A DNA stretch of 64,000 nucleotides from Caulobacteraceae bacterium PMMR1 (lineage in GTDB: Bacteria > Pseudomonadota > Alphaproteobacteria > Caulobacterales > Caulobacteraceae), in assembly GCA_000733915.1 (NCBI GenBank), contig JPOM01000001.1, forward strand, positions 1,860,001-1,924,000. The letters run 5' to 3'. This document shows, one piece after another, positions 46,528 to 64,000 of the stretch (position 1 is its first letter; each line of letters begins with the position of its first letter). The position numbers and the translations under genes are program-made. A model generated the notes under the pieces. It saw only the letters and a program-made list of their open reading frames with translations. It searched no databases and had not been told where the DNA came from.

Positions 46528-46609
46528 TCGGACGCCGAGGTCGCACGGCCTCCCGCTTGCATCGCGGGCGCGCTGGGCTATGCCTCGGGCTTTGGAGCAC
46601 GGCAGGCGT

Positions 46610-47920
46610 ATGGACCGGATCGCCATTCAGGGCGGCGCAAGGCTTCACGGCGAAATCCCGATTTCGGGAGCCAAGAACTCCGCCATCAAGCTGATGGCGG
46701 CGAGCCTGCTTACCGACGCGCCGCTGCGCCTGACCAACATGCCCCGGCTGGCGGACACGCGCTCGCTGGGGGCCCTGCTCAAGCGGTTCGGGACCGAGAT
46801 CGTGGAACGCGACGGCGAGGCCGGGCCCGAGACGACCCTGCATACGCCGGAGATCACCTCCGCGATCGCCCCCTACGACCTGGTGCGCAAGATGCGCGCC
46901 TCGTTCAACGTGCTGGGCCCGCTGATCGCCCGCACCGGCCACGCCAAGGTCAGCCTGCCCGGCGGCTGCGCCATCGGGGCCCGGCCGGTGGACCTGCACC
47001 TGAAGGCGCTGGAGGCGCTGGGGGCCAAGATCGACCTGCACGAGGGCTACGTCTACGCCCAGGCGCCGCGCGGCCTGAAGGGGGCGGAGATCCGCTTCCC
47101 CTTCGTGTCCGTCGGCGCGACCGAGCACACCCTTCTCGCCGCCGTCCTGGCCGAAGGCGAGACGGTGATCCACAACGCCGCCTGCGAGCCCGAGATCGCC
47201 GACCTGGCCGAGTGCCTGAACGCCATGGGCGCCCGGGTAGAGGGCGCCGGGACCCCGACCGTTCGCGTAACCGGCGTCGCGCGTCTGCACGGGGCGACCC
47301 ACGCCGTGACGCCCGACCGGATCGAGGCCGGCACCTACGCCGTGGCCGCCGCCATAGCGGGGGGCGAGGTGCGACTGACAGGCGCCCGCGCCGAGCACAT
47401 CCGCGCCCTGCTCGACAAGCTCGTCGAGGCCGGGGCCGAGGTGAGCGACACCAACGACGGGGTCCGGATCAAGCGCAACGGCGCGCGACTGAACGCGGTG
47501 GACCTCTCCACCGACCCTTACCCAGGCTTCGCGACCGACCTGCAGGCCCAGTTCATGGCGCTGATGACGCTCGCGAAGGGCGAAAGCACGATCCGGGAGA
47601 CCATCTTCGAGAACCGCTTCATGCATGCGCCCGAGCTGATGCGGATGGGCGCCGACATCTCCGTCTCAGGCGGCGAGGCGCGGGTGCGGGGCGTGGACGC
47701 CCTGGAGGCCGCGCCCGTCATGGCCACCGACCTGCGCGCCTCCGTGAGCCTGGTCATCGCGGGCCTGGCCGCCCGCGGCGAGACGGTGGTGCACCGGGTC
47801 TACCACCTGGACCGCGGCTTCGAGCGGCTGGAGGCGAAGCTTTCCGCCTGCGGGGCGCAGGTGCGGCGGATCACGGGCGACGCCCCCGAGCCCGGGTCCG
47901 AGACCGAGACCGAGGACTGA
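46610..47920 (+). CDS. murA: UDP-GlcNAc enolpyruvyl transferase
   Basis: MurA performs the first committed step of peptidoglycan synthesis. The 436-aa product begins [20 protein letters not shown], has K22 in GAKNS, and carries the catalytic loop [15 protein letters not shown] with Cys120, so it should be fosfomycin-sensitive by family knowledge. The ATG at 46610 matches the family start. It is followed after two bases by a DUF2948 gene. Confidence 0.97.
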
Positions 47921-47922
47921 GC

Positions 47923-48375
47923 ATGGCGGAGCAGGCGGGCGAGCTGCCGCGGACCGGACTGAAGCTCCTGGCGGAGGACGCCGAGGACCTCAGCGTGATC
48001 TCCGCGGCGCTGCAGGATGCGGTGCTGAAGGTCGGCGACATCGTGTACGAAGCCGGGCCGAAGCGGCTGACCCTGGCGATGAACCGCTTCCGCTGGGAGG
48101 GGCAGGCGCGCCGGCCCGAGCGGGTGCGGGCGGCGCTGCAGTTCGGGGGCGTGCTCGGCGTCGCCGCCCGGCGCGTGCGGCGGGACGCAGCCGACGCGGT
48201 GCTCTGCCTGCTGGCGGTGACCTTCGAGCCCGCCGCCGAGCCCCCGGGCGGGACCGTCGTGCTGGCCTTCGCCGGCGACGCGGACCTGAGGGCGGAGGTG
48301 GAGTGCCTCGACGCCCTCCTGACCGATCTCGGCGCCCCCTGGCCGGCGAAGCGTCGCCCGGTCCACGGCGCCTGA
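47923..48375 (+). CDS. DUF2948 family protein
   Basis: The 150-aa product contains LKLLAEDAEDLSVISAALQD near the N-terminus and RFRWEGQARRPERVRAALQF, the family pattern. Its function is unknown. It sits two bases after murA, an alphaproteobacterial association that in relatives continues to hisD; here a convergent gene follows instead. Confidence 0.85.
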   Translation: MAEQAGELPRTGLKLLAEDAEDLSVISAALQDAVLKVGDIVYEAGPKRLTLAMNRFRWEGQARRPERVRAALQFGGVLGVAARRVRRDAADAVLCLLAVTFEPAAEPPGGTVVLAFAGDADLRAEVECLDALLTDLGAPWPAKRRPVHGA

Positions 48376-48384
48376 CCCGGCGGC

Positions 48385-49041
48385 TCAGTCGCGCGCCTCA
48401 GCCTCGGGCTGCGCGTCGAAGACGTCGTCCTCGTCGGGGTGGGGGGCGGGCTCGGGATCAGGCTCGGGTTCGGGCCGAGATCGGGGCCGGGCGGCGACCT
48501 GGGCGGGCGCCGCGGGCCTGGAGGCCATGACCGGACGACGCACGATCGCCTCGCCCCGGGCGAGCAGCCGGCGCGCGAGGGCGACGGCGCCTGCGGGATC
48601 GGGCTCAGGATCGCCCGGACGCACCAGCTCGAGATGGAAGTCCGGGTCGCGCAAGTCGTCGAAGACCAGCCGCAGGACGACGCTCGCCGCATCCGGCGCC
48701 AGGTGATCCAGGGGCTTGCGACCCTCGTCGCGGAAGGCGCGCGCCACGATCTTGTCGTCCAGCGCCAGCTCCACCCCGATCAGCTCGTCGAAGCCGAAGA
48801 CGAGCCCCGGGTCGCGTCGCCCGGAGACAACCGCGAGCTTGCCACGCGCGGTGGAGACGCCCAGCGCCTGGCCCCGGACCGGAGCGATCGCGAACTCGTC
48901 GGGCGCCGCGCCCAGCAGTGCGCGCACCGCGCGCTCCGCCCGCCGGCGGGGCTCCATCCACCACGCGAGCGCCATGGCCAGGAGCGTCGCGGCGACCGCG
49001 CCGACCGCCAGCAGGCCTGCGAAGCGGACCGCCTCGGGCAC
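48385..49041 (-). CDS. Membrane-anchored protein of unknown function
   Basis: The 218-aa product has one N-terminal transmembrane helix (about residues 6-27), a soluble domain with a conserved-looking FGFDELIGVELALDDKIVAR (about 82-101), and a Pro/Glu/Asp-rich tail from about residue 170. No known domain is certain. It follows xthA by four bases on the same strand and may be cotranscribed. Confidence 0.65.
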   Translation of the reverse strand: MPEAVRFAGLLAVGAVAATLLAMALAWWMEPRRRAERAVRALLGAAPDEFAIAPVRGQALGVSTARGKLAVVSGRRDPGLVFGFDELIGVELALDDKIVARAFRDEGRKPLDHLAPDAASVVLRLVFDDLRDPDFHLELVRPGDPEPDPAGAVALARRLLARGEAIVRRPVMASRPAAPAQVAARPRSRPEPEPDPEPAPHPDEDDVFDAQPEAEARD

Positions 49042-49045
49042 GGGC

Positions 49046-49825
49046 TCACTCCCTCAGCGTCACGACCACCGGCACGTGGTCGGAGGGCTTCTCCATCGCC
49101 CGCGCGGCCTTGTGCACCTCGCAGGCCTGAAGCCGGTCGGCCGCCTGGGGCGACAGGAACACGTGGTCGATGCGGATGCCGTGGTTCCGCTGCCAGGCCC
49201 CGGCCTGATAGTCCCAAAAAGTATAGGCATGGGGCGTCGGGCTGACCGCCGTCTGCGCCTCGGTCAGGCCCAGCCATTGCAGAGCCCGCCAGGCGGCCCG
49301 GGTCTCGGGCTGGAATAGCGCATCGTCGGCCCAGGCGGCCGGATCGTGGCAGTCCGCCGGCTCGGGGATGCAGTTGTAGTCGCCGGCCAGGGCCAGCGGC
49401 TCCTCGAGCTTCAGCAGCTCGGCGGCGTGGGCGCGCAGCCGCTCCATCCAGCGCAGCTTGTAGGCGAACTTGTCCGTGGCGATCGGATTGCCGTTGGGCA
49501 GGTAGATCGACGCCACCCGCAAGGGCGAGGGCCCGGAGACCACCGCCTCGATGTAGCGGGCGTGCTCGTCGCCGTCCTCGCCCGGCAGCCCCTGTCGGAC
49601 GTCCTCCAGGGGCGTCCGCGACAGGAGCGCGACGCCGTTGTAGCTTTTCTGCCCGAAGGTCTCGACGTTGTAGCCCAGGCCCTCGAAGGCCTCGCGCGGG
49701 AACTTCTCGTCGACGCACTTGATCTCCTGCAGGCAGGCCACGTCGGGCTGGGCCTCGCGGAACCAGGCCAGGACCGTCTCCAGCCGGGCGTTGATCGAGT
49801 TCACGTTCCAGGTGGCGATGCGCAT
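49046..49825 (-). CDS. xthA: Exodeoxyribonuclease III
   Basis: This AP endonuclease/3' exonuclease acts in base-excision repair. The 259-aa product has ATWNVNSINAR, CLQEIKCVDE with the metal-binding Glu, GDYNCIPEP, RIDHVFLSP and the terminal SDHVPVVV catalytic His. The ATG at 49825 begins MRIATWNVNSI; the open frame upstream is not conserved in style. Confidence 0.96.
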   Translation of the reverse strand: MRIATWNVNSINARLETVLAWFREAQPDVACLQEIKCVDEKFPREAFEGLGYNVETFGQKSYNGVALLSRTPLEDVRQGLPGEDGDEHARYIEAVVSGPSPLRVASIYLPNGNPIATDKFAYKLRWMERLRAHAAELLKLEEPLALAGDYNCIPEPADCHDPAAWADDALFQPETRAAWRALQWLGLTEAQTAVSPTPHAYTFWDYQAGAWQRNHGIRIDHVFLSPQAADRLQACEVHKAARAMEKPSDHVPVVVTLRE

Positions 49826-49893
49826 CCCGCCCTTGTGGCCCAGACTCGGGGCGAGGGCAAAAGGCCTCGGCGTCTGCGAAGCGCCGCGCGACG

Positions 49894-50822
49894 CTAGGCG
49901 GCCGGCGTCCCGATGCGCCTGATCTCCCACTCCAGCGGCACGCCGAAGCGGGCGAGCACATCGGCGCGCACCGCCTCGCCCAGGCCCTCGAGGTCGGCGG
50001 CGGTCGCCTCGCCCGGATTGATCAGGAAGTTGGCGTGCTGGGGCGAGAACATCGCGCCGCCGCCGCCCAAAGGCGCGGGCGCCTGGAAGAGCCGGCCGCG
50101 CCAGCCGGCCTCGTCCACCAGCCGCCAGGCCGAGCGCCCTTCGGGGTTCTTGAACGTAGAGCCGCCGGTCTTATCGCGGATCGGCTGGGAGGCCTCGCGG
50201 CGCGCCGTGATCTCGCCCATGCGGTCTTGCACCTCGGCCGGGTCGTCGGGCACGCCCTGGAACAGCGCGCCGGTGAAGATCAGCCGCTGGCCGGCGGCCG
50301 CCTCGCATCGGCGGTAGCCGAACCCCATGTCCTCGTTGGACAGGATCAGGCGCCGGCCCTGGCGGGTCAGGGCGTAGGCCTCGACCAGCACGTCCTTGGT
50401 CTCCGCACCGTAGCAGCCGGCGTTCATGGCGCACGCGCCCCCGATGGCGCCCGGGACGCCGGTGAAGAACTCCAGCCCCGCCAGGCCAGCCACCCCCGCG
50501 GCCTTGGCCAGGGCTGCGTCCAACACCGCGGCGCCGGCGTAAAGACGGCTCCCGTCCAGGGGCTTGATGTCGCCGAAGCCGCGCCCGAGGCGGACGACGA
50601 CGCCCTCCACCCCGCCGTCTCGGACCAAAGTGTTGGAGCCGACGCCCAGCACGGTCAGCGGCGCGCCGGGGTCCAGCCCCTGCAGGAAGGCCTCGAGGTC
50701 CTGCTCGTCCTGGGGGATGAACAGCACCTCCGCCGGCCCGCCGACCCTGAGCCAGGTGAACGGCGCCAGCGGCTCGTCGAAGGCAAGCCGTCCCCGGACG
50801 GGCGGCAGTCGCTCGCGCCAGG

Positions 50823-50826
<4 letters not shown>
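49894..50826 (-). CDS. murB: UDP-N-acetylenolpyruvoylglucosamine reductase
   Basis: MurB reduces the enolpyruvyl group to form UDP-MurNAc. The 310-aa FAD enzyme has [43 protein letters not shown], the active-site GGSTFKNP, and [10 protein letters not shown] near the C-terminus. The GTG start overlaps the murC TGA (GTGA). The next genes in a usual dcw cluster (ddl, ftsQ) do not follow. Confidence 0.96.
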
Positions 50827-52247
<1,421 letters not shown>

Positions 52248-52365
52248 GGCGGGTCCGCTTAGCGCCGACCGAGGGCGGAAGAAAGCGGACATCCTGCGCC
52301 CAGCATCCCTCGCCGGCCGAGGGCGGGCGCCTGACAAGGCCCGCCGGAGAGGCCATGTGCCGGGG

Positions 52366-53808
52366 ATGCCCGTCTCGCCGCACTATCTGCCCGACCCCCG
52401 CATCGCCGAGCTCGGGCCGGAGTTTTCCGATCCCGTGCGCCCGGCGGACTTCCCGCAGACGGTCCTGCGCTTCCGCAACGATCGCGCCGCCGCCAGCGTG
52501 GGCCTGGACACCCTCAGCGACGCGGAGTGGACCCAAAGCTTCGGCCGTTTCGCGCCCCTGCCCGGCAACCTGCCGACGCCTCTGGCGCTGCGCTACCACG
52601 GCCATCAGTTCCGCGTGTACAACCCCGACCTCGGCGACGGGCGGGGCTTTCTCTTCGCCCAGCTCCGCGAGGGCGGCGCGCCGGAGGGCCGCCTGCTCGA
52701 TCTCGGGACCAAGGGATCGGGCCAGACGCCGTGGTCGCGCGCCGGCGATGGGCGGCTGACCCTGAAGGGCGGCGTGCGCGAGGTGCTGGCGACCGCCATG
52801 CTCGAGGCGCTGGGCGTGCCGACCTCGCGCTCGTTCTCCTTGATCGAGACCGGCGAGGCGCTGGAGCGCAGCGACGAGCCCTCCCCGACCCGTTCCGCCG
52901 TCCTGGTGCGCCTGGGCTGGAGCCACCTGCGCTTCGGCAGCTTTCAGCGACCGGCCTTTCACGCGCGCGCCGACCTGATCGAGGCCCTGACCCGGCACGT
53001 GGCCGCGCTCTACTATCCGCAGCTGGACGCCGCCCTCCCCGTCGGCGAGCTCGCTCCGGCTCTGTTCCGCGCGGTGCTGACGCGCACGGCGGAGCTCTGC
53101 GCCCGCTGGATGGCCGCGGGGTTCGTGCACGGGGTGCTGAACACCGACAACATGAACGTGAACGGAGAGAGCTTCGACTACGGCCCCTACCGCTTCCTGC
53201 CGCGCAACGACCCGAACTTCACCGCCGCCTACTTCGACCACTCAGGCCTTTACGCCTTCGGCCGCCAGCCCGAGGCGGTGTTCTGGAACCTGCAGCAGCT
53301 GGCGGGATGCCTGACGCTGGTCGCCGCGCCCGAGCCCCTGGTGGAGACCCTGAACGGCTTCGGGGCGGCGTACCGCGATGGGCTCAGGCGCGCGATGCTG
53401 GCGCGGCTGGGCGTGAAGAGCCGGGACGAGGCGGCCGACATCGCCCTGGTCAACCTCGCCTTCCGCGCCCTGGCCGAGGGCGGCGAGGCCCTGCGCTGGG
53501 AGCCCTTCTTCTTCGACTGGTTCGGGGGGCCGGCGTCGGAGGCGCGCGCCCTGACGGGGCCCCGCGCCGAGGTCTATGCCCAGCCGGCCGGCCAGGCGTT
53601 TCGCAGCGCGCTCGCCGGCTTCGTCCCGGACCGGCCCGAGCGCCTGGCGGACCCGGTCTTCGCGCGCCCTGAGCCGGAGGAGCTGCTCTATCCCCAGATC
53701 GAGGCGATCTGGGACGCCATCGCCCGCGACGACGACTGGGCGCCCTTCCACGCAAAGCTCGACCGTCTCGAGAAGGCACGCCAGGCCTGGGACTTAACCC
53801 TGAAGTGA
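52366..53808 (+). CDS. selO: Protein adenylyltransferase SelO (YdiU)
   Basis: SelO is a pseudokinase-fold enzyme that transfers AMP from ATP to Ser/Thr/Tyr of proteins. The 480-aa product has the family stretch [38 protein letters not shown] with its Lys/Arg, and [26 protein letters not shown] containing the Asn and Asp metal ligands. ATG at 52366 ([16 protein letters not shown]) was chosen; a GTG three codons earlier is possible. A 6-bp hairpin CGCAGC/GCTGCG (53866-53883) after the stop is a weak terminator candidate. Confidence 0.93.
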
Positions 53809-53926
53809 GGCGCGCGCGCCACAGCCGGGGGGCGCAAGAGACTGCAGGGAACCCGGGGCCTGAACCGCAGCGCTTCGGCTGCGTTGCCGTCGGGTGGGGT
53901 GCGTAAGGCGGCCCCCGGAGGCGACC

Positions 53927-54202
53927 ATGAGCGTGAACCTGGCGATCGTGCCCCAGACCCCAGAGAGCCCGGCGGCGCGGGCGCGGCGGCTGCTCGCGGA
54001 GGCGAAGTCGGCCGCGATGGAGCAGATCGAGATCCTGGAGCGGGCCCTGGCCCAGGTGCAGGGGCTGTCGGCGGAGATCGCCGACGGCGGCGAGGCCTAT
54101 CCCGCAGGCGTGCGCGACGTCTGCCGCAAGCTGGCCGAGGACGTGGCGATCCGCGCCCAGACGCTGGACACCCTGGTGCAGCGCGGACGGCTGACGGCCT
54201 GA
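53927..54202 (+). CDS. Small helical protein of unknown function
   Basis: The 91-aa product begins MSVNLAIVPQTPESPAARAR and is almost wholly alpha-helical and charged. GGAGG lies a few bases upstream of the ATG. It ends four bases before the convergent MFS gene. No domain is recognised, and codon bias supports a real gene. Confidence 0.6.
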   Translation: MSVNLAIVPQTPESPAARARRLLAEAKSAAMEQIEILERALAQVQGLSAEIADGGEAYPAGVRDVCRKLAEDVAIRAQTLDTLVQRGRLTA

Positions 54203-54206
54203 GCGC

Positions 54207-55481
54207 TCAGCCCGCGCTCGCCGGCTCGAACCGGCGGTAGCGCCCAAGCGTCAGCAGCAGCAGCCCGCCCAGCACCAGCAGCCCCGCCGACAGCACCAGC
54301 GGCTGGGCGTAGGAGTGGGCGCGGTCGAACGCCTTGCCGAAGTAGACGGGCCCGAACCCGGCCCCCAGCGAGAAGAAGCCGTAGAGCAGGCCGTAGATGG
54401 CGCTGTAGCGCTTCATGCCGAAGTAGCGCGCCACCAGGAAGGCCATCAGGTCGTACTCGACCCCGGCCGCAAAGCCGATCATGACGATCGAAGCCGCCGC
54501 CCCCTCATAGCTCAGCCCGCCGCGGGCCAGCATCCAGCAGCCCGCCGCCGGCGCGCTCAGCAGCACGAAGGCCACCGCCGGCGCCCACAGGCGGTCGATC
54601 AGCCAGCCGCCGAGGATGCGCCCGAAGATCACGGACAGGCCGATCAGGGACGCCAGGCCGACCACCTGGGCGGGGCCGAAGCCCGCGGTCTTCAGGATGT
54701 TCTCCATGTTGGGCACAGGCCCGCCGACGGCGAAGGAGATGGGCAGGAACGCCAGCCCGAGCACCCAGAACCGCCAGCTCTTGATCGCGCCGGCGAGGGT
54801 GAGCCCCGGGGTGGCGGCGCGGCGGGCCAGCGCCTCGGCCCTGCGCTCGGCCGCCGAGCGGCCCCGCTCGCCCACGTCGTGGAAGCCCAGCCACGCCACG
54901 GGCAGGGTGATCAGAAGCGGCAGGGCCCCGATGACGACATAGGTCGCGCGCCAGCCGTAGCCGGCGATCAGCCACGCCGCGAAGGGCTTCACGAGGTAGC
55001 CGAAGAGCCCCGTGCCCAGCAGGCTGAGCCCCAGCGCCAGGCCCTTGCGCCGGTCGAAGCGGCTGTTCACCGCCCGCGTCCAGGTGACCGGCAAGGTGCC
55101 GGCCCCGGCGAAGGCCATGACCAGCCAGGTGGCGTAGAACTGCAGAAGGGACCCGCTGCCCAGGCCGAAGCTCATGAAGGCCAGCGAGAACAGCACCACC
55201 GAGGTCAGGGCGACGGGCCGCACGCCCGCCCGGTCGGCGATCCAGCCCACCAGCGGGCTCGCCACCAGCACGCCGTAGACCATGATCGGCAGGCCCTGCA
55301 TGACCTGGCCGAACGACCAGCCGAAGGCCCGCGCCAGCTCCGGCGCCAGCATGCCGATGGTGTAGAAGGGCACCGGCGAGAGCCCCAGGCCGATGCCCAG
55401 CATGGCGGAAAGCACCACCGGCCAGCCGCGGCGGAACTCCGCATAGCCGCCCACCCCCGCTTCCGACGCCGAGCCCGCCAC
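54207..55481 (-). CDS. MFS transporter
   Basis: The 424-aa product has about 12 hydrophobic helices in two halves and a loop-2/3-like GWIADRAGVRPVAL (about residues 80-93), the MFS signature. The character is that of oxalate/formate-antiporter or monocarboxylate-type family members (organic acid carriers). A 22-bp motif shared with two other sites sits 30 bases upstream of its ATG, so it probably belongs to the regulon of the nearby GntR protein and moves a substrate or product of that pathway. Confidence 0.85.
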   Translation of the reverse strand: MAGSASEAGVGGYAEFRRGWPVVLSAMLGIGLGLSPVPFYTIGMLAPELARAFGWSFGQVMQGLPIMVYGVLVASPLVGWIADRAGVRPVALTSVVLFSLAFMSFGLGSGSLLQFYATWLVMAFAGAGTLPVTWTRAVNSRFDRRKGLALGLSLLGTGLFGYLVKPFAAWLIAGYGWRATYVVIGALPLLITLPVAWLGFHDVGERGRSAAERRAEALARRAATPGLTLAGAIKSWRFWVLGLAFLPISFAVGGPVPNMENILKTAGFGPAQVVGLASLIGLSVIFGRILGGWLIDRLWAPAVAFVLLSAPAAGCWMLARGGLSYEGAAASIVMIGFAAGVEYDLMAFLVARYFGMKRYSAIYGLLYGFFSLGAGFGPVYFGKAFDRAHSYAQPLVLSAGLLVLGGLLLLTLGRYRRFEPASAG

Positions 55482-55510
55482 GCCGCCCCCTCTCCCGCCC
55501 TGCGCGGCGG

Positions 55511-55532
55511 AATGACCTATATCTATACCATT
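55511..55532 (-). promoter_or_regulatory. Predicted GntR operator, site 1 (MFS gene)
   Basis: Plus strand AATGACCTAT-ATC-TATACCATT. It lies 30-51 bases upstream of the MFS start codon. It matches site 3 (reverse complement) at 19 of 22 positions and site 2 at 17 of 22. It is a strongly AT-rich island in very GC-rich surroundings. Confidence 0.7.
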
Positions 55533-55590
55533 TGCGGCGGTTCACGCGTCCCTGGCAAGAGACCCCCTCCAGGCCCTCGCGCTTCAGGCC

Positions 55591-56673
55591 TCAGATGACG
55601 CCCTTGGCCGCCAGGGCGTCGATCACCCGGCGCTGGCGGGCGGCGTACCAGGCGGGGTCGGGGGCGAGGGGACGCCCATCCTCGCCCAGCAGGGTGTTGC
55701 GGGGCTGGATGTCGACGCTCGCATAGGCCTCGGTCCAGAGCGCCATGGGCTGGCGCGCGAGCAGGTTGCCCATGCCGGGCCGCCGCCGGAGCCGTCTCAG
55801 CGCCGCGATGTCGATCTCCGCCCAGGCCGCCATGCTCTCTCCAAAGCCGCTCTCCGCCAGCACCAGGCCCCGGGGGTCGACCACCTTGGAGCCCGCATCG
55901 GTGGAGGCCTCCGGGATGGCGATCCCGGCGATGCCCGCGCTGTTGGCCGAGACGACATAGGCGAGGTTCTCAATGGCGCGCGCCTGCTTGGCGATGTTCT
56001 TCGGCGTCGGCGCGAGACTGCCCACCTCGCTGGAGGAGTGCACGAACACCTCCGCGCCGCGCACCGCGAGCGCCCGGGCGATCTCGGGGTAGAGAATCTC
56101 CTCCGACGCGATGGCCGCGATCCGCCCGAGCGCGGTGTCCGCCACAGGGAAGAGGCTGTCGCGGCCATAGGCCTCCACATAGCGATCGTAGACGTCGTAG
56201 GGGCTCGGCGCGAACATGGAGACCAGCCGGCGGTAGCGCAGCACCACCTCGCCGGAGGGCGCGATCAGGAACGAGGTCTGGAAGTAGAGCCCCGGGAAGT
56301 GCGGGTCGCGCTCATAGGCGTTGCCGGCGAGGTGCACGTCCGCCGCCGCCGCGAGCTCGCCCAAGGCCGCGTACTCCGGCCCCGCCATGTCGAGCGCCGC
56401 CGTCTCGGCCCAGGCGAGGGCCGTCTCGCCCATCGGGAAGCCGGTCAGGAAATACTCCGGCAGCACGACGAGCTTCACGTCCGGGCCGATGAAGTGCTTG
56501 GACGCCAGGACCTGGGCGCGGACGCGCGCGAGGGTCGCAGCCATGCGGGCGCGGGCGGCCTTGGCGTCCGGCGCGCCATTGACGGCGTGGCAGGCGGTCT
56601 GCAGGGCGAGCGCGATAAAGGGCGCCGGCGGCTCGGCGGGGTGCGGCGCGGCCGCGCGGGGCTCAATTGGCAT
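55591..56673 (-). CDS. Nitrilase-superfamily protein with altered catalytic residues
   Basis: The 360-aa product has the carbon-nitrogen hydrolase fold. The glutamate site is present (LPEYFLTG, Glu73). The lysine site reads RYRRLVS, with Arg149 where Lys is expected. The nucleophile site reads AIASEEILYPE, with Ser190 where the Cys of the usual ICYExxxPE should be. The end of the fold (ALAVRGAEVFVH, YVVSANSAG) is intact. Either the chemistry differs, or the protein is a pseudoenzyme with a binding or regulatory role. The start is ATG at 56673, and operator site 2 is 18 bases upstream. It lies between the MFS gene and the divergent GntR gene. Confidence 0.85.
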   Translation of the reverse strand: MPIEPRAAAPHPAEPPAPFIALALQTACHAVNGAPDAKAARARMAATLARVRAQVLASKHFIGPDVKLVVLPEYFLTGFPMGETALAWAETAALDMAGPEYAALGELAAAADVHLAGNAYERDPHFPGLYFQTSFLIAPSGEVVLRYRRLVSMFAPSPYDVYDRYVEAYGRDSLFPVADTALGRIAAIASEEILYPEIARALAVRGAEVFVHSSSEVGSLAPTPKNIAKQARAIENLAYVVSANSAGIAGIAIPEASTDAGSKVVDPRGLVLAESGFGESMAAWAEIDIAALRRLRRRPGMGNLLARQPMALWTEAYASVDIQPRNTLLGEDGRPLAPDPAWYAARQRRVIDALAAKGVI

Positions 56674-56690
56674 AGCCGGCTTAGACCTTT

Positions 56691-56712
56691 ATTGACCCAT
56701 AGGTATACCAAT
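56691..56712. promoter_or_regulatory. Predicted GntR operator, site 2 (nitrilase-like/gntR intergenic)
   Basis: Plus strand ATTGACCCAT-AGG-TATACCAAT, inside the 100-bp space between two divergent genes. It is 18 bases from the nitrilase-like ATG and 61 bases from the regulator ATG. It contains GGTATACC, a perfect 8-bp palindrome. One bound regulator could control both directions, including autoregulation. Confidence 0.7.
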
Positions 56713-56773
56713 CTGCCGGGCCGGGCGGGCCGACGCCAGCCCCGGCTGAGCGCGGGGCGGAAGAGGCGCATCC

Positions 56774-57580
56774 ATGGTCGCAGTCCGGGCGCAAGGCATC
56801 GACGCGAGCCAGCTCGACCCCTCCGGGCCGACGCCGCTGTACCACCAGATCTACCTCATCCTCCGGGAGAAGATCCGCTCAGGCGCGCTCGCCGCCAACG
56901 CCGCCCTGCCCGGCGAGCAGGAGCTGGCGCGCGTCTTCGACGTCTCGCGCATCACGGTGAAGCGGGCGCTGAACGAGCTCGCCGCCGACGGCCTGGTCAG
57001 TCGGCACCGCGGGCGGGGCACCATCGTGGCCGGCGGGGCGACCATCCCGGTGGTGAAGGGCAGCTTCGACACCCTGATCGAAAGCCTTCACATCATGGGG
57101 CTGGAGACCGAGGTGGAGCTGCTCGACGTCGCCACCGTCCCGGCCGAGGGGGAGATCGCCGCGCACCTGGGGCTGGAGCTCGGCGCGGAGGTGCAGCGCG
57201 CGATCCGCCGGCGCAAGCTGCAGGGGGAGAGCTTTTCGCACCTGGTCACCTACGTCCCGGCGGCGATCGCGGCGCGCTATACGCTGGAGGAGCTGGCCTC
57301 GACCTCGCTGCTCACCCTGCTCGAGCGCGCAGGCGCGGCGGCCTACGAGGCGGAGCAGTGGATCACCGCCGTGGCCGCCGATCCGGGCGTGGCCTCCGCC
57401 CTGGGCCTGACCTCCGGCGCGCCCTTGCTCAAGATCGAGCGCGTGATGCGCGGCGCCAAGGGCGAGCCGGTGCAGCTTATCCACGCGCACTACCGCCCCG
57501 ACCGCTTCCAGTACCACGTCAAGACGCACCGCCGTCGCCCGGCGGGAGGCGGCCAGCCGGTCTGGCGCGACGAGGGCTGA
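56774..57580 (+). CDS. GntR-family regulator, HutC/UTRA type
   Basis: The 268-aa product has an N-terminal winged helix-turn-helix (about residues 20-88): PLYHQIYLILREKIRSG, LPGEQELARVFDVSRITVKR with the recognition helix, and the wing RHRGRGTIV. A UTRA effector domain follows (about 100-250). It should bind a dyad operator and release it on binding a small effector, normally a pathway metabolite. The three 22-bp motifs around it are the natural candidates. It is divergent from the nitrilase-like gene. Confidence 0.93.
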   Translation: MVAVRAQGIDASQLDPSGPTPLYHQIYLILREKIRSGALAANAALPGEQELARVFDVSRITVKRALNELAADGLVSRHRGRGTIVAGGATIPVVKGSFDTLIESLHIMGLETEVELLDVATVPAEGEIAAHLGLELGAEVQRAIRRRKLQGESFSHLVTYVPAAIAARYTLEELASTSLLTLLERAGAAAYEAEQWITAVAADPGVASALGLTSGAPLLKIERVMRGAKGEPVQLIHAHYRPDRFQYHVKTHRRRPAGGGQPVWRDEG

Positions 57581-57628
57581 GACGCGTTGCGGGCCCTGCG
57601 CATTCCGCTTGCCAGCCGCGCTACCCCT

Positions 57629-57650
57629 AATGGTATATGAATAGGTCATT
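57629..57650 (+). promoter_or_regulatory. Predicted GntR operator, site 3 (membrane protein-oxidase operon)
   Basis: Plus strand AATGGTATA-TGA-ATAGGTCATT, the same motif in reverse orientation (reverse complement AATGACCTAT-TCA-TATACCATT). It is 35 bases upstream of the ATG of the next gene. All positions outside the 3-base spacer agree with site 1. Confidence 0.7.
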
Positions 57651-57685
57651 TCGCCCCTGCGAGCCCTGAAGGAGCCCCGACCGGG

Positions 57686-58336
57686 ATGCTGACCGCGGCG
57701 TTTGTGCTGCTGCATGTGCTGGTCCTGGTCTATTGGCTGGGGGGCGACCTGGGTGCGTTTTATGCCTCGACCTATGTCTCCGACCCCAAGCGCAACCCAC
57801 AGGCGCGTCTGGCGGCGGCGGGCATCCTGGCCGGGGTCGACATGGCGCCCCGCACCGCCCTGATCCTGGCGTTCCCGACGGGGTTGACCGTCGCCTACAC
57901 CGAGAGCCTGATCGACATCCCCTGGGGCGGGCTGGTGATGCCGGCGATCTGGGCCGCGGCTCTGGGCTGGCTCTGGCTCGCCTGGGACATCCACCTGAAG
58001 CACCGGCCGCCCGGCGGCGCGGCGCGGCGGCTGGACCTCGCGATCCGCGTCGCAGCGCTCGCGGGGCTGCTCGCCCTGGCGGGGCTCATGACCGCCTGGC
58101 CGCTGTTCATGCGCCTGAAGCTCGTGGTGCTGGCCGGCGCCATCGCCCTGGGTCTGGCGCTGCGGCGGCTTCTGGCGCCCATCGGCCCGGCAATTGCGAC
58201 GCTGGCGTCCGGAGAGGCGAGCGAGGCGGCCGACCGCACCATCGCGCGGGTGCTGGGCGCGAGCCGGCCGGTGGTGCTCCTGATCTGGCTGCTGCTGCTG
58301 GTCGCCGCCGCGCTCGGCATCGCCAAGCCCGCCTGA
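57686..58336 (+). CDS. Six-helix membrane protein (CopD/DUF2269-like appearance)
   Basis: The 216-aa product has about six transmembrane helices, starting MLTAAFVLLHVLVLVYWLGGDLGAF. The early His in LLHVLVLVYWLGGD and the later helices with Arg/His between them (PRTALIL, DIHLKH) recall heme-binding or CopD-type proteins, but no family is certain. The start has GAAGGAG upstream. It is first in a likely operon with the oxidase and dehydrogenase genes, and might pass electrons from the oxidase to the respiratory chain; that role is speculative. Confidence 0.75.
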   Translation: MLTAAFVLLHVLVLVYWLGGDLGAFYASTYVSDPKRNPQARLAAAGILAGVDMAPRTALILAFPTGLTVAYTESLIDIPWGGLVMPAIWAAALGWLWLAWDIHLKHRPPGGAARRLDLAIRVAALAGLLALAGLMTAWPLFMRLKLVVLAGAIALGLALRRLLAPIGPAIATLASGEASEAADRTIARVLGASRPVVLLIWLLLLVAAALGIAKPA

Positions 58337-58357
58337 CCCGGACGGAGCCCCTCGCCC

Positions 58358-59971
58358 ATGGCCGACATCGCCCCCGCCCTCGACCGTCCCGCCGGCGAAC
58401 GCCTTCTGGACCGCCTGCGCCAGGCCCTCGGCGCGGAGGCCGTGAGCGCGGACGAGGCTCTTCGCGCCCTCTACTCGCAGGACATCTGGGCGGAGGGCTC
58501 CCACGTGGCCGACGCGGTCGTGAGCCCGCGGGACACCGCGGCCCTCGCCGAGGCCGTGCGGCTGACGGCCGCGGAGCACCGCCCCCTCGCCGTGCGGGGC
58601 GGCGGCATGAGCTACACCCAGGGCTATGCGGTCCAGGCGCCCGGCGCGGTGCTGATCGACCTCTCGCGCATGGACCGCGTGCTGCGGGTTTCGGCGGACG
58701 ACATGACCGTCACAGTCCAGGCCGGCTGCACCTGGAAGACGCTGCTGGAGACCTTAAAGCCGCTCGGCCTTCGCACGCCCTTCTGGGGTCCGCTGTCGGG
58801 GATCAGCTCCACCGTCGGCGGCGGCGTCAGCCAGCACAACGCCATCTTCGGCGCCGGCCGCTATGGCACGACCTGCGAGAGCGTCGTGGCGCTCACCGTG
58901 GTGCTGGCGGACGGGCGGGTGCTGCGGACCGGGGCGCAGGGGCGCGGCGGCGAGACGCCGTTCTACCGCTTCTTCGGGCCGGATCTGACGGGGGTCTTCT
59001 GCGGCGACACCGGCGCGTTCGGCGTCAAGGCGGAGATCACCCTGCGCCTGATCCGCGCCCCGGCGTGCGAGGGCTACGCCGCCTTCGCCTTCGACGCGGC
59101 GGACGCGGCGCTGCGCGCCGCCGCCGAGATCGCGCGGGCGGAGGTCGCCAGCGAGTGCTTCGGCTTCGACCCGGCGCTGGCGCGGGCGCGGCTGAAGCGG
59201 GCGAGCCTGCTCGCCGATGTGCGCACCCTGGGCCATGTCGCCGCCCGGCAGCAGGGCTGGCTCAAAGGCGTTCAGGAGGCCGCCAAGGTCGCGCTGGCGG
59301 GCCGCAGCTTCGTGGGCGACGACCGCTGGTCGATCCACCTCGCCAGCGAGGGGCGCAGCCAGGCCGCGGTGGACGCCGACCTCGCCGAGGCGCGCCGCAT
59401 CGCGCTCGCGGCGGGAGGCCGCGAGATCGAGAACTCGATCCCCAAGATCATGCGCGCGCAGCCCTTCACGCCGCTGAACAACGTCCTGGGGCCCGGCGGC
59501 GAGCGGTGGGTCCCGGTGCACGGGATCGTGGCGCTCTCCGATGCGAGCGCCTGCTACGCCGCGATCCAGGCCGAGTTCCAGGCGCGGGCGGCGCAATTCG
59601 CGACGGCGGGCGTGGAGACCGGCGCCATGCTGACCACCCTCTCCACCAACGGCTTCCTGATCGAGCCGGTGTTCTTCTGGCCCGAGGCGCGGCTGGCGAT
59701 CCACGAGGCGACGGTGGAGCCCGCCATGCTCGCCCGCCTGCCCCGCCTGGCGCCCAACCCCGAGGCGACGGCGCTTGTCGCCGAGGCCCGGCGGGCGGTG
59801 GTCGAGGTGTTCCAGCGCTTCGGTGCGGCGCATTTCCAGGTCGGGCGCACCTATCCCTATCGCGAGAACCGCGACGCCGCCTCGCGCGATCTGCTCGACG
59901 CCGTGAAGGCGGCGGTCGATCCGCAGATGCGGCTGAACCCGGGCGGGCTCGGCTTTCCGGCGGACGCATGA
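58358..59971 (+). CDS. FAD-linked oxidase (VAO/PCMH family)
   Basis: The 537-aa product has a PCMH-type FAD domain: RGGGMSYTQGY (80-90), VTVQAGCTWKTLLE, GISSTVGGGVSQHN and GRYGTTCESVVAL. The FAD-linked oxidase C-terminal domain ends in MRLNPGGLGF. Members oxidise alcohols, phenols, hydroxy acids or lactone precursors. Covalent flavin attachment is uncertain. The stop overlaps the aldehyde dehydrogenase ATG by four bases, so the two act in one pathway and the oxidase probably supplies an aldehyde. Confidence 0.9.
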   Translation: MADIAPALDRPAGERLLDRLRQALGAEAVSADEALRALYSQDIWAEGSHVADAVVSPRDTAALAEAVRLTAAEHRPLAVRGGGMSYTQGYAVQAPGAVLIDLSRMDRVLRVSADDMTVTVQAGCTWKTLLETLKPLGLRTPFWGPLSGISSTVGGGVSQHNAIFGAGRYGTTCESVVALTVVLADGRVLRTGAQGRGGETPFYRFFGPDLTGVFCGDTGAFGVKAEITLRLIRAPACEGYAAFAFDAADAALRAAAEIARAEVASECFGFDPALARARLKRASLLADVRTLGHVAARQQGWLKGVQEAAKVALAGRSFVGDDRWSIHLASEGRSQAAVDADLAEARRIALAAGGREIENSIPKIMRAQPFTPLNNVLGPGGERWVPVHGIVALSDASACYAAIQAEFQARAAQFATAGVETGAMLTTLSTNGFLIEPVFFWPEARLAIHEATVEPAMLARLPRLAPNPEATALVAEARRAVVEVFQRFGAAHFQVGRTYPYRENRDAASRDLLDAVKAAVDPQMRLNPGGLGFPADA

Positions 59972-61389
59972 GCCGCACGTTCAAGGTCCGCAATCCGCGC
60001 ACGGGCCAGCGGGACTACGCGTTCGAGGCGCCCTCCCCCGCCGAGCTCGACGGCCGCATCGCCCGGGCGCGCGCCGCCCAACCTGCCTGGGCGGCGCTGG
60101 GCTTTGAGGGCCGCAAGGCGCGGCTGGATCAGCTCGCCAGCGCCCTGAGCGCGCGTCGCGACGAGATCGTCTCGGCGCTGGAGGCCGACACCGGGCGGCG
60201 GCGCATCTCCTCGCTGGAGCTTCAGAGCGTGCTGAGGGCGCTCGCCGGCTGGACCGCCATCGCGCCGAACCTGTTGCCCGAGGGCTGGACGCCCGGCCGC
60301 AGCAACCCCGCCCTGCGCCATGCGCCGCAGTGGGTCCCCTTCCCGGTGGTGGGCGTGATCAGCCCCTGGAACTTCCCCTTGCTGCTGGGCATGATCGACA
60401 CCGTACCTGCGCTGGCGGCGGGCTGTGCGGTGGTGGTGAAGCCGTCGGAGGTCGCGCCTCGCTTCGCCGCCCCGGTGCAGGCCGCGGTCGAGGCGGCGGG
60501 GCTCGGCGAGCTGCTGCAGCTCATCCCCGGCGACGGCGAGACCGGCCAGGCGCTGATCGAGCGCGTCGATTGCGTCTGCTTCACCGGATCGGTGGCGACG
60601 GGCCGCAAGGTCGCCGTGCAGGCGGCGCAGCGCCTGATCCCCGCCTTCCTAGAGCTCGGCGGCAAGGACCCGCTGGTGGTGCTGGCCTCCGCCGACCTGG
60701 AGTGCGCGACGGACGCGGCGCTGAGGGGCGCGGTGCTCTCCACCGGCCAGGCCTGCCAGTCCATCGAGCGCATCTATGTGCAGCGCGACATCTACGACGC
60801 CTTCCTGGCGCGCCTGGTCGAGAAGGCGAACGCCGCCCGCCTGACCTGGCCGGACATCGGCGTCGGCGAGATCGGGCCGATCATCTTCGAGCGCCAGGCC
60901 GACATCCTCGCCGCCCAGATCGACGACGCCCGTTCCAAGGGCGGCCGGGTCCTGACCGGCGGTGAGATCGAGCGGCACGGCGGCGGGCTCTGGCTCCGAC
61001 CCACCGTGATCGCCGACGCCACGCCCGGCATGCGCCTGATGCAGGACGAGACCTTCGGCCCGCTCCTGCCGGTTGCGGCCTTCGACACCGTCGAGGCGGC
61101 GGTCGCGCTTGCCAACGCCGGCGAGTACGGCCTGTCCGCCGCGGTCTTCGCCCGCACGGTGGAGGAGGCGGAGGCCGTGGGACGGCGGATCGAGGCCGGG
61201 GCGATCAGCCTCAACGACGCTGCGCTGACCGCCATCTTCTACGAAGCCGCCAAGCAGAGCTTCAAGGCGTCCGGGCTTGGCCCCTCTCGCATGGGCGCGG
61301 AGGGCCTGCAGCGCTTCTTCCGCCGCAAGGCGCTGATCGCCAACACCGGCCGCCCCCTGCCGCTTTCCGCCTTCGCCGAGGACGCCTGA
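59968..61389 (+). CDS. Aldehyde dehydrogenase family protein
   Basis: The 473-aa product is an NAD(P)-dependent aldehyde dehydrogenase with PWNFP (Asn135), KPSE, the FTGS Rossmann motif (205-208), LELGGKDP (Glu229) and the nucleophile in STGQACQSIERI (Cys263). It resembles the coniferyl-aldehyde/succinate-semialdehyde type in size. The start overlaps the oxidase stop and the end shares a base with the next ATG. The natural product is a carboxylic acid. Confidence 0.93.
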   Translation: MSRTFKVRNPRTGQRDYAFEAPSPAELDGRIARARAAQPAWAALGFEGRKARLDQLASALSARRDEIVSALEADTGRRRISSLELQSVLRALAGWTAIAPNLLPEGWTPGRSNPALRHAPQWVPFPVVGVISPWNFPLLLGMIDTVPALAAGCAVVVKPSEVAPRFAAPVQAAVEAAGLGELLQLIPGDGETGQALIERVDCVCFTGSVATGRKVAVQAAQRLIPAFLELGGKDPLVVLASADLECATDAALRGAVLSTGQACQSIERIYVQRDIYDAFLARLVEKANAARLTWPDIGVGEIGPIIFERQADILAAQIDDARSKGGRVLTGGEIERHGGGLWLRPTVIADATPGMRLMQDETFGPLLPVAAFDTVEAAVALANAGEYGLSAAVFARTVEEAEAVGRRIEAGAISLNDAALTAIFYEAAKQSFKASGLGPSRMGAEGLQRFFRRKALIANTGRPLPLSAFAEDA

Positions 61390-62105
61390 TGCTGCACCGC
61401 TCGATCGCCGGGACGATCCTCTACACCTCCAAGAAGCCCGAGCGCCTGGACCAGCGGCGCGGCATCGAGCACTTCCGCTTTACACGCCACACCGACGGGG
61501 CGGTGACCCTGCGCGCCCACTGCGAGATCGAGGAGCCCGAGCCCACGGTGCTGCGCGACGTGGTCTACAGCCTGGACGCCCAGGCCCGGCCGATGGACGC
61601 CTTCGTCCGCCTGACGGTCGGCGACCGCTTCATGGGCTCAGGCTGGGTGCGGTTCGCCGACGGGCTGGCGGAGCTGGAGTCCTTCGGCGCAGCCACCGGC
61701 CGGCTCTCGCAGCGGATGCCGCTGGAGGGCCCGCTTGACGGCATGGGCACGCACCCGGTCGTTGCGGACGGCTATCTCATCGCGGTGCAGACGGGCTGGC
61801 GGGAGGGCGAGACGCGCAGGCTGCGGGTGCTCGTGCCCTCTCCCGATCACCGGGGCGCGACCCCGCCGCTGCTCGCGCGGGTGCAGATCGACGTGCGCTT
61901 CATTGGGCGCGAACAGGTGCGGGTCGGCGCCGGCGCCTTCGCTGCGCGCCGCTTCCAGTTCCTGGACCCAGGCGACTCAGGCCTTGCCGGCCAGCATCCG
62001 CCCTACGACGTCTGGATCACCGACGACGAGGACGGGATCATGCTCCAGGGCGGGGTCGGCGGTTACATGCAGACGTGGTACGAGCTGGTCGCCCTGGAGC
62101 GCTGA
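61389..62105 (+). CDS. Unassigned soluble protein in the oxidase operon
   Basis: The 238-aa product has no signal peptide and looks mostly beta-stranded. Its C-terminal half (RVLVPSPDHRGATPPLL, QIDVRFIGREQVRVGAGAF, then YDVWITDDEDGIMLQGGVGG) resembles beta-rich proteins that precede a transport or binding step, with a faint DUF3108-like rhythm. I do not recognise the family. It is joined to the dehydrogenase gene by a TGATG overlap, so it should act in the same pathway. It is the last gene of the operon. Confidence 0.65.
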   Translation: MLHRSIAGTILYTSKKPERLDQRRGIEHFRFTRHTDGAVTLRAHCEIEEPEPTVLRDVVYSLDAQARPMDAFVRLTVGDRFMGSGWVRFADGLAELESFGAATGRLSQRMPLEGPLDGMGTHPVVADGYLIAVQTGWREGETRRLRVLVPSPDHRGATPPLLARVQIDVRFIGREQVRVGAGAFAARRFQFLDPGDSGLAGQHPPYDVWITDDEDGIMLQGGVGGYMQTWYELVALER

Positions 62106-62138
62106 CGCACCGCCCCTTCGATGGCGTGAGTCCCGCGG

Positions 62139-64000
62139 CTAGTAGGCGTACTTGAGGCGGAAGGTCACCCGGCGCGGGTCGTTTGGATAGATCAAGCCCA
62201 GAAGCGAGGAGGTCGAGTAGTACTCCTGCGTGCAGTTGGAGCACTCCAGCGCCGCTTCCCAGTGACGGTCCGCCGAGCGGTAGATCGCGCCGATGTTGAG
62301 CACATAGGTCGGCGGCGTCTTGGACAGGGGAGCGCTGACAGGCGTCGTCCCGCCGTAAGGGACGCCCGTGGTGCGAGGGGCGTCGTTGTAGGTGCTGGTC
62401 CAGTAGTAGTCGGAGTAGCTGAGCGCGCCGTTCAGGTTCAGCTCGCCGCCGAAAGACGCGAACGTCGGCCCGAAGGTGGCCAGCGGGATCTTGTAGCTGC
62501 CGCCCACGGTCAGTTGCGCGTCGGGGAAGCGCACGGGCTCGTCGCGGGTCGTGGTGCAGCTCGCCGGCTCCGGCGTGGAAGAGCACGGAACGCCGCCCGC
62601 GCCGACCCGGCCGGCCGGGATGTTCTCGTACTTCTTGTCCGCGAAGGAGCCCGAGGCGAACACCTCCAGGTTCCGCACCGGGATGGCGTTGATCTCGTAT
62701 TCCAGACCCGTCGCGTTCAGGTCGCCCGCATTGCGGGTCACGAAGGCGATCGTGCCGCCCGGACCCGGCGCACCGGAGAGCAGCTGAAGGTCGCTGACAT
62801 CCTCATGGTAGAGGGTCAGGTTGACCCGCAGGCGGCGCTCGAACCACTCCGTCCGGGCGCCGAGTTCGTAGGACCAGGCTTCCTCGGGGCCGAAAATGGT
62901 CACGGAGGACAGGCTGGTGACGCGCGTGTTCCAGCCGCCCGACTTGAAGCCGTTCGTGGCCGAGACATAGACCGACTTGTTGGGATCGATCTTGTAGTTC
63001 AGGGCGATGCGCGGCGTGAACTTGTTGGTGGTCTGGGTCAGCGGGATGCCAGCGCCGGCCACCGCCGCCGAAGTCAGATGCCCCGTGAAGGGTCCGACGA
63101 AGAACCCGTTGTAGAAGCTGGCCGGCTTGACGGCGTCGTCATAGCCGAACTTCTTCTTCTCGTGCGTCGATCGCCCGCCGGCGGTCAGGGTCAACTGGTC
63201 AGTCAAAGCCAGGTCGAACTGCGCATAGGCCGCAATGGAGTCGGCCTTGTTGTGCAGCACCCAGTCTGTGAGCAGCAGGTTCAGGCTCCCGTATGCGTCG
63301 GCTTCTTCCGTCTTGTTGCTCTCGGTCAAGGCGAACACGCCCGCCACGTACTTGATGCGGCCACGCTGGCCGTCGAGCTTCACCTCCTGGGTGAACTGAT
63401 CGTTGCGGACCTGGTTGGCGATGACGTAACCGCCCTTCGGGCTTACGCCATTGAAGAAGTCGATCGCGAAGTTCTGGTCGGTTACCCGGTATCCGGTGAT
63501 GAAGGACAGCGCGCCCCACTCCGGCAGGTCGAACGTCAGGTTGGAGGTGATGCCGCCCGTCTGCACCCGGGCGCAGTTGCCGCGGGAGGTCAAGAAATAC
63601 TTGGCGATCTCGTTGTCGGTGCAGCCCCCGTAACGCAAGCCGCTGCGCACCTTGTAGTCGGGGTCGTAGGGGAACGAGCCGATCGTGGTCTTCGCCTGGT
63701 CGATGTAGTCGAAGGAGACGTCCCAGCGCGCGTTGCTAAAGGGCTGGGCGCGGACCGCAAAGCGGACCCCCTTCGCCTCCTCCCCGTTCAGCTTCTCGCC
63801 CGTAGTGACATCGCGGGCATAGCCGTCGTCGTTCACGTAGAAGACCGAAAGCTTGGTCAAGAGCTTGTCGGTGATCGGCACGTCGATCGCGCCGCGGATC
63901 TGGGCGCGGTCGAAGCTGCCGTAGGAGCCCTCGACGAAGAACCCGAACTGCTTGGACGGCTTGCGGGTGATGATCGAGACCGCGCCGCCGGTCGTATTGC
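62139..64000 (-). CDS. TonB-dependent receptor (N-terminus beyond window)
   Basis: About 620 C-terminal residues are visible. The first visible residues NTTGGAVSIITRKP are the end of the plug domain, and the beta-barrel follows, ending LKYAY with the terminal aromatic residue of outer membrane barrels. Sequences such as LTLTAGGRSTHEKKKFGYDD and NKSVYVSATNGFKSGGWNTR are typical of the FecA/FepA-like and xenobiotic-uptake receptors of Caulobacterales and sphingomonads. A Cys pair (CSNCTQ) lies near the end. It converges on the oxidase operon and may import its substrate; its promoter is outside the window. Confidence 0.92.
   Translation of the reverse strand, partial: NTTGGAVSIITRKPSKQFGFFVEGSYGSFDRAQIRGAIDVPITDKLLTKLSVFYVNDDGYARDVTTGEKLNGEEAKGVRFAVRAQPFSNARWDVSFDYIDQAKTTIGSFPYDPDYKVRSGLRYGGCTDNEIAKYFLTSRGNCARVQTGGITSNLTFDLPEWGALSFITGYRVTDQNFAIDFFNGVSPKGGYVIANQVRNDQFTQEVKLDGQRGRIKYVAGVFALTESNKTEEADAYGSLNLLLTDWVLHNKADSIAAYAQFDLALTDQLTLTAGGRSTHEKKKFGYDDAVKPASFYNGFFVGPFTGHLTSAAVAGAGIPLTQTTNKFTPRIALNYKIDPNKSVYVSATNGFKSGGWNTRVTSLSSVTIFGPEEAWSYELGARTEWFERRLRVNLTLYHEDVSDLQLLSGAPGPGGTIAFVTRNAGDLNATGLEYEINAIPVRNLEVFASGSFADKKYENIPAGRVGAGGVPCSSTPEPASCTTTRDEPVRFPDAQLTVGGSYKIPLATFGPTFASFGGELNLNGALSYSDYYWTSTYNDAPRTTGVPYGGTTPVSAPLSKTPPTYVLNIGAIYRSADRHWEAALECSNCTQEYYSTSSLLGLIYPNDPRRVTFRLKYAY

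Follow-up and report, generated by a model that had tools for sequence, protein, structure and literature searches.

Nitrilase-fold proteins that carry serine and arginine where the catalytic cysteine and lysine are expected form a defined cross-phylum family. The member described here is encoded in the window, i.e., the whole stretch of 64,000 nucleotides that was analysed, and the residue swap noticed in a sequence-only reading of this DNA is real and was understated. Accounts of the nitrilase superfamily usually define it through a Glu-Lys-Cys triad. This triad is stated for C-N hydrolases in the account of the MtCPA enzyme (PMC4812014). Among the matches listed from the open-access literature, with most subscription papers lying outside, no paper describes a natural Cys-less Ser/Arg nitrilase clade. 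The clade spans Pseudomonadota, Cyanobacteriota, Bacteroidota, Chloroflexota, Bacillota, Fidelibacterota and Actinomycetota, and a monophyletic family that is always Arg and always Ser represents a natural test of whether the nitrilase fold works without a thiol. Our leading reading, held tentatively and with nearly even weight, is that of a repurposed non-thiol enzyme of a GntR-controlled catabolic operon, which would act on a lactam or imide substrate, possibly open-chain tetrapyrroles.

The protein matches the CN_hydrolase family (PF00795) over residues 58-297 (E 2.3e-30, Pfam) and thus belongs to the superfamily by fold. A scan against NCBIfam returned no family over its cut-off, the equivalogs for formamidase (57.7 bits, threshold 406) and aliphatic amidase (51.9 bits, threshold 427) both falling short. 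In phmmer alignments with solved formamidases and amidases, E73, R149 and S190 fall on the Glu, Lys and Cys positions, which bears out the claim of the sequence-only reading that Glu73 is kept while Arg149 stands for the lysine and Ser190 for the cysteine; the LYPE and GAEVFVH motifs, described there as intact, are found at residues 194-197 and 206-212. Structure prediction, proposed as a check of that claim, gave a confident nitrilase-fold model (AlphaFold, mean pLDDT 93.9, 53-row alignment) in which strand 183-189, S190 and helix 191-194 form the expected nucleophile elbow. The top structural match of the model is the aliphatic amidase 2uxy, which superposes over 284 residues with Z 32.8 and an rmsd of 2.4, and the ten best matches (VIA) all belong to the aliphatic amidases and formamidases, with Z 31.6-32.8 and rmsd 2.3-3.3 over 266-293 residues. 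The AmiE/AmiF (aliphatic amidase/formamidase) branch shares with the window protein the fold, Glu73, the strand-elbow-helix arrangement at the nucleophile and the P-E motif, and it supplies the best NCBIfam matches. The window protein differs from this branch by Arg for Lys, Ser for Cys and Gln for Asn132, and by the loop of the second catalytic Glu (E142 of the amidase), which appears shorter and Glu-less in the alignment. Nit2/Nit3-type proteins (1f89, 2w1v) are alike in fold, 1f89 being the best single phmmer match (E 7.3e-13), but the window protein shows the same triad changes relative to them at about 22% identity.

The swap is shared by close homologues, as the sequence-only reading had asked to be checked. 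In particular, a class-wide protein search of 385 alphaproteobacterial genomes (E 1e-20), free of any selection for Ser by the search pattern, found 33 places in 25 genomes; 30 of these places were read, the other three having no locus. The E73/R149/S190 set is present in 12 of these 30 places, the window included (at least 311 bits and at least 45% identity), and absent from the remaining 18 (at most 139 bits, up to 38% identity). A named-genome search with alignment provided a second set of 81 rows, made of the best 80 of at least 564 relatives plus the window and partly selected for Ser, as one of its two search patterns included the SEE motif. In this 81-row set the catalytic Glu is retained as E73 in every row, while the Lys and Cys positions are occupied by R149 and S190 in 81/81; R146, R148, E191, E192, H212, E216 and K225 are likewise invariant (81/81). 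Six further loci, one of them from an actinomycete, carry the same E73, Q132, R149, S190, E191, E192 and K225, and a seventh, partial locus has R149 and S190; L147, among these further loci, is the same gene as L118. Members of the clade are 45-77% identical to the window protein. Membership of the clade in the nitrilase superfamily is a matter of fold and not of mechanism.

The Ser/Arg clade is monophyletic and under purifying selection. In a tree of 56 rows built with the trait columns excluded (a fast, non-bootstrapped reconstruction with long branches), the 36 Ser rows occupy one side of one branch (SH-aLRT 95) and the Lys column shows a single change, from K to R, all 16 relatives that keep Cys having Lys149. 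The tree took 23 of the 80 named loci; the partial L003 and L027 were left out, and the residues of L118, which is absent from the tree, were read separately. Q132, R149, S152 and E191 are found in 36/36 clade rows vs 0/16 relatives chosen for keeping Cys, and Y120 in 36/36 vs 1/16. Altogether, the columns near-invariant in the clade (35-36/36) and present in at most 2/16 Cys-keepers are N32, G82, Y120, Y130, Q132, L145, R149, S152, P156, E191 and R307, besides S190, a pattern suggesting that several positions changed together and then froze, some of them presumably lining the pocket. The dN/dS ratio ranges from 0.02 to 0.31 and is below 1 in 12/12 pairs (simple Nei-Gojobori); the pair L051/L052 is nearly identical, which makes its value meaningless. 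In other clades of the tree, the Cys position holds Ala in L016 and L023, Gly in L032 and a gap in L030, while Lys is kept. Judging from the aligned residues, nitrilase-fold relatives appear to have given up the thiol on more than one occasion.

The 80 named loci comprise 42 from Pseudomonadota, 32 from Cyanobacteriota, 2 from Bacteroidota, one each from Bacillota, Fidelibacterota and Chloroflexota, and one without a phylum label, the actinomycetotal member lying outside them; where a rarer phylum is represented by a single locus, contamination is a possible source. The distribution of the gene is patchy, with matches in 5/149 genomes of the window's family and in 5/398 genomes of the phylum, two of the latter (L119, L120) being of the Cys type.

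The features of the locus are collected in Table 1, in which the outer-membrane receptor and the small membrane protein carry labels (TonB, DUF2269-like) that, like EtfA/EtfB and PuuE-like elsewhere, are presumptive. The solved chain nearest to the aldehyde dehydrogenase is 4h7n.

Table 1. Positions in the window of the nitrilase-fold gene, its key codons, the operator copies and the neighbouring genes (loci counted over the best 80 of at least 564 relatives plus the window)
Feature	Position	Strand	Remarks
MFS transporter	54207..55481	minus	PF07690, E 1e-31; 14/81 loci
Operator copy 1, before MFS gene	55513..55532	plus	TGACCTATATCTATACCATT
Nitrilase-fold protein without catalytic Cys/Lys	55591..56673	minus	360 aa
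Ser190 codon	56104..56106	minus	catalytic Cys position
Arg149 codon	56227..56229	minus	catalytic Lys position
Gln132 codon	56278..56280	minus	Asn in 16/16 Cys-keeping tree relatives
Glu73 codon	56455..56457	minus	catalytic Glu, retained
Operator copy 2, between nitrilase-fold gene and GntR gene	56693..56712	plus	TGACCCATAGGTATACCAAT
GntR/UTRA regulator	56774..57580	plus	PF07702, PF00392; 21/81 loci
Operator copy 3, before membrane-protein/oxidase/aldehyde dehydrogenase genes	within 57624..57655	minus	TGACCTATTCATATACCATT
Small membrane protein, DUF2269-like by eye	57686..58336	plus	no Pfam match
FAD-linked oxidase/dehydrogenase	58358..59971	plus	PF01565, E 2.4e-34; relatives in 21 other loci
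Aldehyde dehydrogenase	59968..61389	plus	PF00171, E 9.5e-109; 62/81 loci
Uncharacterised protein	61389..62105	plus	no family above cut-off; 7/81 loci
Outer-membrane receptor, TonB-type by eye	62139..63998	minus	cut by window end

Three copies of a GACCTATnnnTATACCA-like site are present in the window, and the GntR/UTRA protein is likely to be the owner of this operator. Copy 3 runs opposite to copy 1, with which it agrees at 81% over 32 nt; it misses the operator pattern at 1 mismatch and was picked up by eye and as an inverted repeat of 32 nt. The pattern gave 0 matches in 100 shuffles, a figure that speaks of rarity only, since the pattern was drawn from the sites themselves. Of 16 relatives scanned, 9 have a similar site ahead of the gene (66-68 bp in eight, 37 bp in one) and the other seven have none; the nine are of the Brevundimonas/Phenylobacterium kind, except one labelled Methylocystis, and may include the same species twice. 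The earlier suggestion that the gene is under a local operator is thus well founded.

The company of the gene was evaluated by BLAST clustering of the ORFs around the 81 loci (best 80 of at least 564 plus the window), with labels taken from one scanned representative per cluster, except for the red chlorophyll catabolite (RCC) reductases, of which 19 were scanned. The most constant partner is the aldehyde dehydrogenase, whose loci come from six phyla and which is found in 44/48 of the loci that have 5 kb on both sides. It lies near the gene in 42/46 loci vs 0/20 control stretches, which come from 4 genomes, all alphaproteobacterial. Against the same controls, amide or cyclic-amide hydrolases (allantoinase/hydantoinase-like, deacetylase-fold, isochorismatase, HyuA/B and amidase) are present in 18/46 loci vs 0/20 (p 4e-4), and cyclic-amide hydrolases alone in 12/46 vs 0/20 (p 0.008), both p values ignoring the kinship of the loci; the control stretches held a curcumin-type reductase, a glyoxalase-type and an aconitase-type gene, 1/20 each. 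A DUF3598-like small protein occurs in 30/81 loci, the order in Nonomuraea being aldehyde dehydrogenase, DUF3598 and nitrilase-fold gene. The remaining recurrent neighbours, besides the GntR and MFS genes, are FAD oxidase (21 loci, a count from which the window's own copy is missing, hidden by a run-on ORF), RCC reductase (18), curcumin-type reductase (16), CoA-transferase III (16), allantoinase/hydantoinase-like proteins (12, in four phyla), HMGL (10), DUF1838 (10), amidase (8), MmgE/PrpD (7), aconitase (6) and CpeT (5). In genome G175, a stretch of roughly 35 kb with genes on both strands has CpeT at one end, followed by MmgE/PrpD, an amidase, a mesaconyl-CoA-hydratase-like MaoC protein, an HpcH/HpaI lyase, deacetylase-fold proteins, an isochorismatase, DUF3598 and the nitrilase-fold gene, and then aldehyde dehydrogenase, aconitase and HMGL.

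Some of these neighbours have a connection with tetrapyrroles. RCC reductase and the bilin reductases are described as having a common fold and detectable homology (PMC13193486). Of the 32 cyanobacterial loci, 18 have an RCC-reductase relative nearby, and in 14 of these it lies 34-169 bp upstream; all such neighbours are in Cyanobacteriota loci (18/81 overall), and 19/19 aligned members match PF06405 at E 0.001. No RCC reductase over the cut-off is present in the 16 clade-bearing genomes, which gave only 1 weak match. Among the 19 aligned members is an alphaproteobacterial relative below the curated cut-off, 31% identical to a cyanobacterial one, at L137:5499-6329, on a contig that also carries a family-type aldehyde dehydrogenase and a UbiD decarboxylase. 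Two RCC-reductase-type ORFs per cyanobacterial locus are present in L057, L067, L080 and L093.

The CpeT family is found in 5/385 alphaproteobacterial genomes, that is in 3/10 clade-bearing genomes vs 2/375 others (p 1.2e-4), and in 2/9 clade-bearing genomes when the window genome is left out (p 0.003); within the cluster of 5 CpeT proteins, the scan covered a single one. Five of 16 clade-bearing genomes have CpeT, near the gene in G515 (2.7 kb) and G175 (27 kb) and unlinked to it in the window genome, G294 and G785. The CpeT stretches of G294 (five), G785 (two), G326, G246 and the window genome, some of them parts of contigs, contain neither the Ser/Arg nitrilase-fold gene nor the aldehyde dehydrogenase. 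The CpeT/CpcT-family gene of the window genome (E 2.5e-37) is at L132:8240-8917 (C1:1053383-1053907), among ORFs unrelated to the cluster. At L145:9747-13421, CpeT adjoins what appears by eye to be an outer-membrane receptor, as it does in G175 (L133), L035, L038, L040 and L042, and this pairing looks recurrent. The DUF3598-like partner, represented by the L047 protein, is modelled as a ten-stranded barrel (pLDDT 95.1) that matches BFA1 (Z 17.7), a Nostoc DUF3598 protein (16.0), nitrobindin (15.4) and the CpeS bilin lyase (13.6), and also resembles spirocyclases (Z 15.2) and fatty-acid-binding proteins (about 11-12); a profile comparison of this barrel with CpeT found no similarity (probability 0.3%).

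Going by family names, a cyclic-imide hydrolase, a maleamate-type amidase, an aconitase-type hydratase and a lyase would make a sensible maleimide route. A further-reaching proposal, which we regard as unlikely, is that the Arg/Ser/Glu non-thiol enzyme, the aldehyde dehydrogenase and a tetrapyrrole-binding barrel would be at the core of an undescribed cross-phylum bacterial pathway for the breakdown of open-chain tetrapyrroles (bilins, chlorophyll catabolites) via maleimides to central metabolites. No paper joining red chlorophyll catabolite, nitrilase and bacteria was found in the open-access literature. If this lead from gene neighbours is true, it points to tetrapyrrole-breakdown genes in ordinary environmental bacteria. 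Any proposal on the substrate draws on the relatives' loci, and the window's own locus (46591-64000) has no nitrogen-ring or tetrapyrrole-type neighbours, in particular no DUF3598-like, RCC reductase, CpeT or amide-hydrolase gene. It may be, although this is less likely than not, that the substrate is another hydrophobic compound, such as an apocarotenoid, a terpenoid or an aromatic, with the RCC-reductase and CpeT neighbours being coincidental, an alternative that concerns the substrate only. The aldehyde dehydrogenase, the FAD oxidase, the curcumin/leukotriene-type reductase and the fatty-acid-binding-like barrel would fit such compounds, as would the window locus devoid of a nitrogen-ring enzyme and the lack of RCC reductase over the cut-off in the 16 clade-bearing genomes. 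However, cyclic-amide hydrolases, amidases and isochorismatase recur in the relatives' loci, which suggests a nitrogen-ring substrate.

In the repurposed non-thiol enzyme that we tentatively favour, the thiol triad would have been lost and the pocket rebuilt around Glu73, Gln132, Arg149, Ser190, Glu191/Glu192 and perhaps Lys225. Arg149 and Ser190 may anchor an acyl or carboxylate group and polarise it, while Glu73/Glu192 may work as acid-base, so that catalysis would bypass the Cys thioester. The enzyme would act beside the aldehyde dehydrogenase in the GntR-controlled catabolic operon, on a substrate with lactam or cyclic-imide groups, for which open-chain tetrapyrroles or their maleimide fragments would be the best fit. 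The engineered C158S form of MtCPA is alike in having Ser at the nucleophile position, but it is a laboratory mutant with that change alone; according to the passages on this mutant (PMC4812014), the Cys-to-Ser change preserved binding and strongly diminished reactivity. This result takes the plain Cys thioester route out, leaving an acid-base site that has been rebuilt, a Ser nucleophile acting on a more reactive acyl group, or pure binding, and of itself it favours binding over catalysis. Ser-based chemistry and a binding role are the two options that the sequence-only reading had named. A non-catalytic ligand binder, whose pocket would sense, store or deliver a pathway compound, e.g., to the aldehyde dehydrogenase, is an alternative that we consider somewhat unlikely. 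In its favour, neither of the classical reactive residues is left, a Cys-to-Ser protein of the same fold still binds after losing most of its reactivity (PMC4812014), and the constant presence of the aldehyde dehydrogenase would suit a carrier. However, the swap is specific, always to Arg and Ser with Q132 and E191 and with no drift to varied residues, and the acid-base side chains E73, E192, H212 and E216 are invariant across the best 80 of at least 564 relatives and the window. As far as can be judged from the aligned residues, this constancy of acid, base and polar residues slightly favours a rebuilt enzyme.

Alternatively, Ser190 may be a true nucleophile, in which case a serine version of the nitrilase chemistry would have an ester or lactone, more reactive than amides, as its substrate. 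This overlaps with the rebuilt enzyme, both being enzymatic, and its weight can only be set roughly; we consider it unlikely. Both the alignment and the model place S190 at the nucleophile, and it is invariant in the 81-row set (best 80 of at least 564 plus the window), but the usual help is missing, with Lys replaced by Arg and the loop of the second Glu apparently lost in the alignment, and the engineered Cys-to-Ser change was strongly diminishing (PMC4812014). Very improbable is a triad rebuilt from residues elsewhere in the pocket, e.g., with K225 as the Lys and C28, the only Cys of the window protein, as the Cys. Within the best 80 of at least 564 relatives plus the window, C28 is kept in 76/81 and is Thr, Val or Ser in 5/81; a Cys shifted to C28 was rejected because this residue is not invariant. 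The sequence-only reading had named two findings that would tell against it, namely Cys and Lys placed elsewhere in the pocket or retained by close homologues. The second fails, close homologues being without both, and a displaced Cys is unlikely given the replacements of C28. For the Lys, K225 is invariant in 81/81, so a displaced Lys keeps some probability, with the reservation that K225 becomes Arg in two deeper members of the alignment (L028 and L029). Finally, a decaying gene or a sequencing error has practically no chance, since E73/R149/S190 in 81/81 rows rule out a point error and the single clade, the dN/dS below 1 in 12/12 pairs, the full length and the operator link agree with the earlier claim against decay, no evidence favouring decay or error having been found.

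The nitrilase domain of DRT1, a phage-defence reverse transcriptase, is another instance of this fold in an unusual setting; as described for it (PMC13275509), DRT1 keeps its catalytic Cys (C1116), while the window protein has no reverse transcriptase. For genes of the Ser/Arg clade, annotation by homology as amidases or nitrilases would need a second look. A second nitrilase-like ORF is present in a Phenylobacterium locus that carries the gene (L033:2185-3534), with Glu and Lys motifs and, by eye, apparently Ser at the Cys position.
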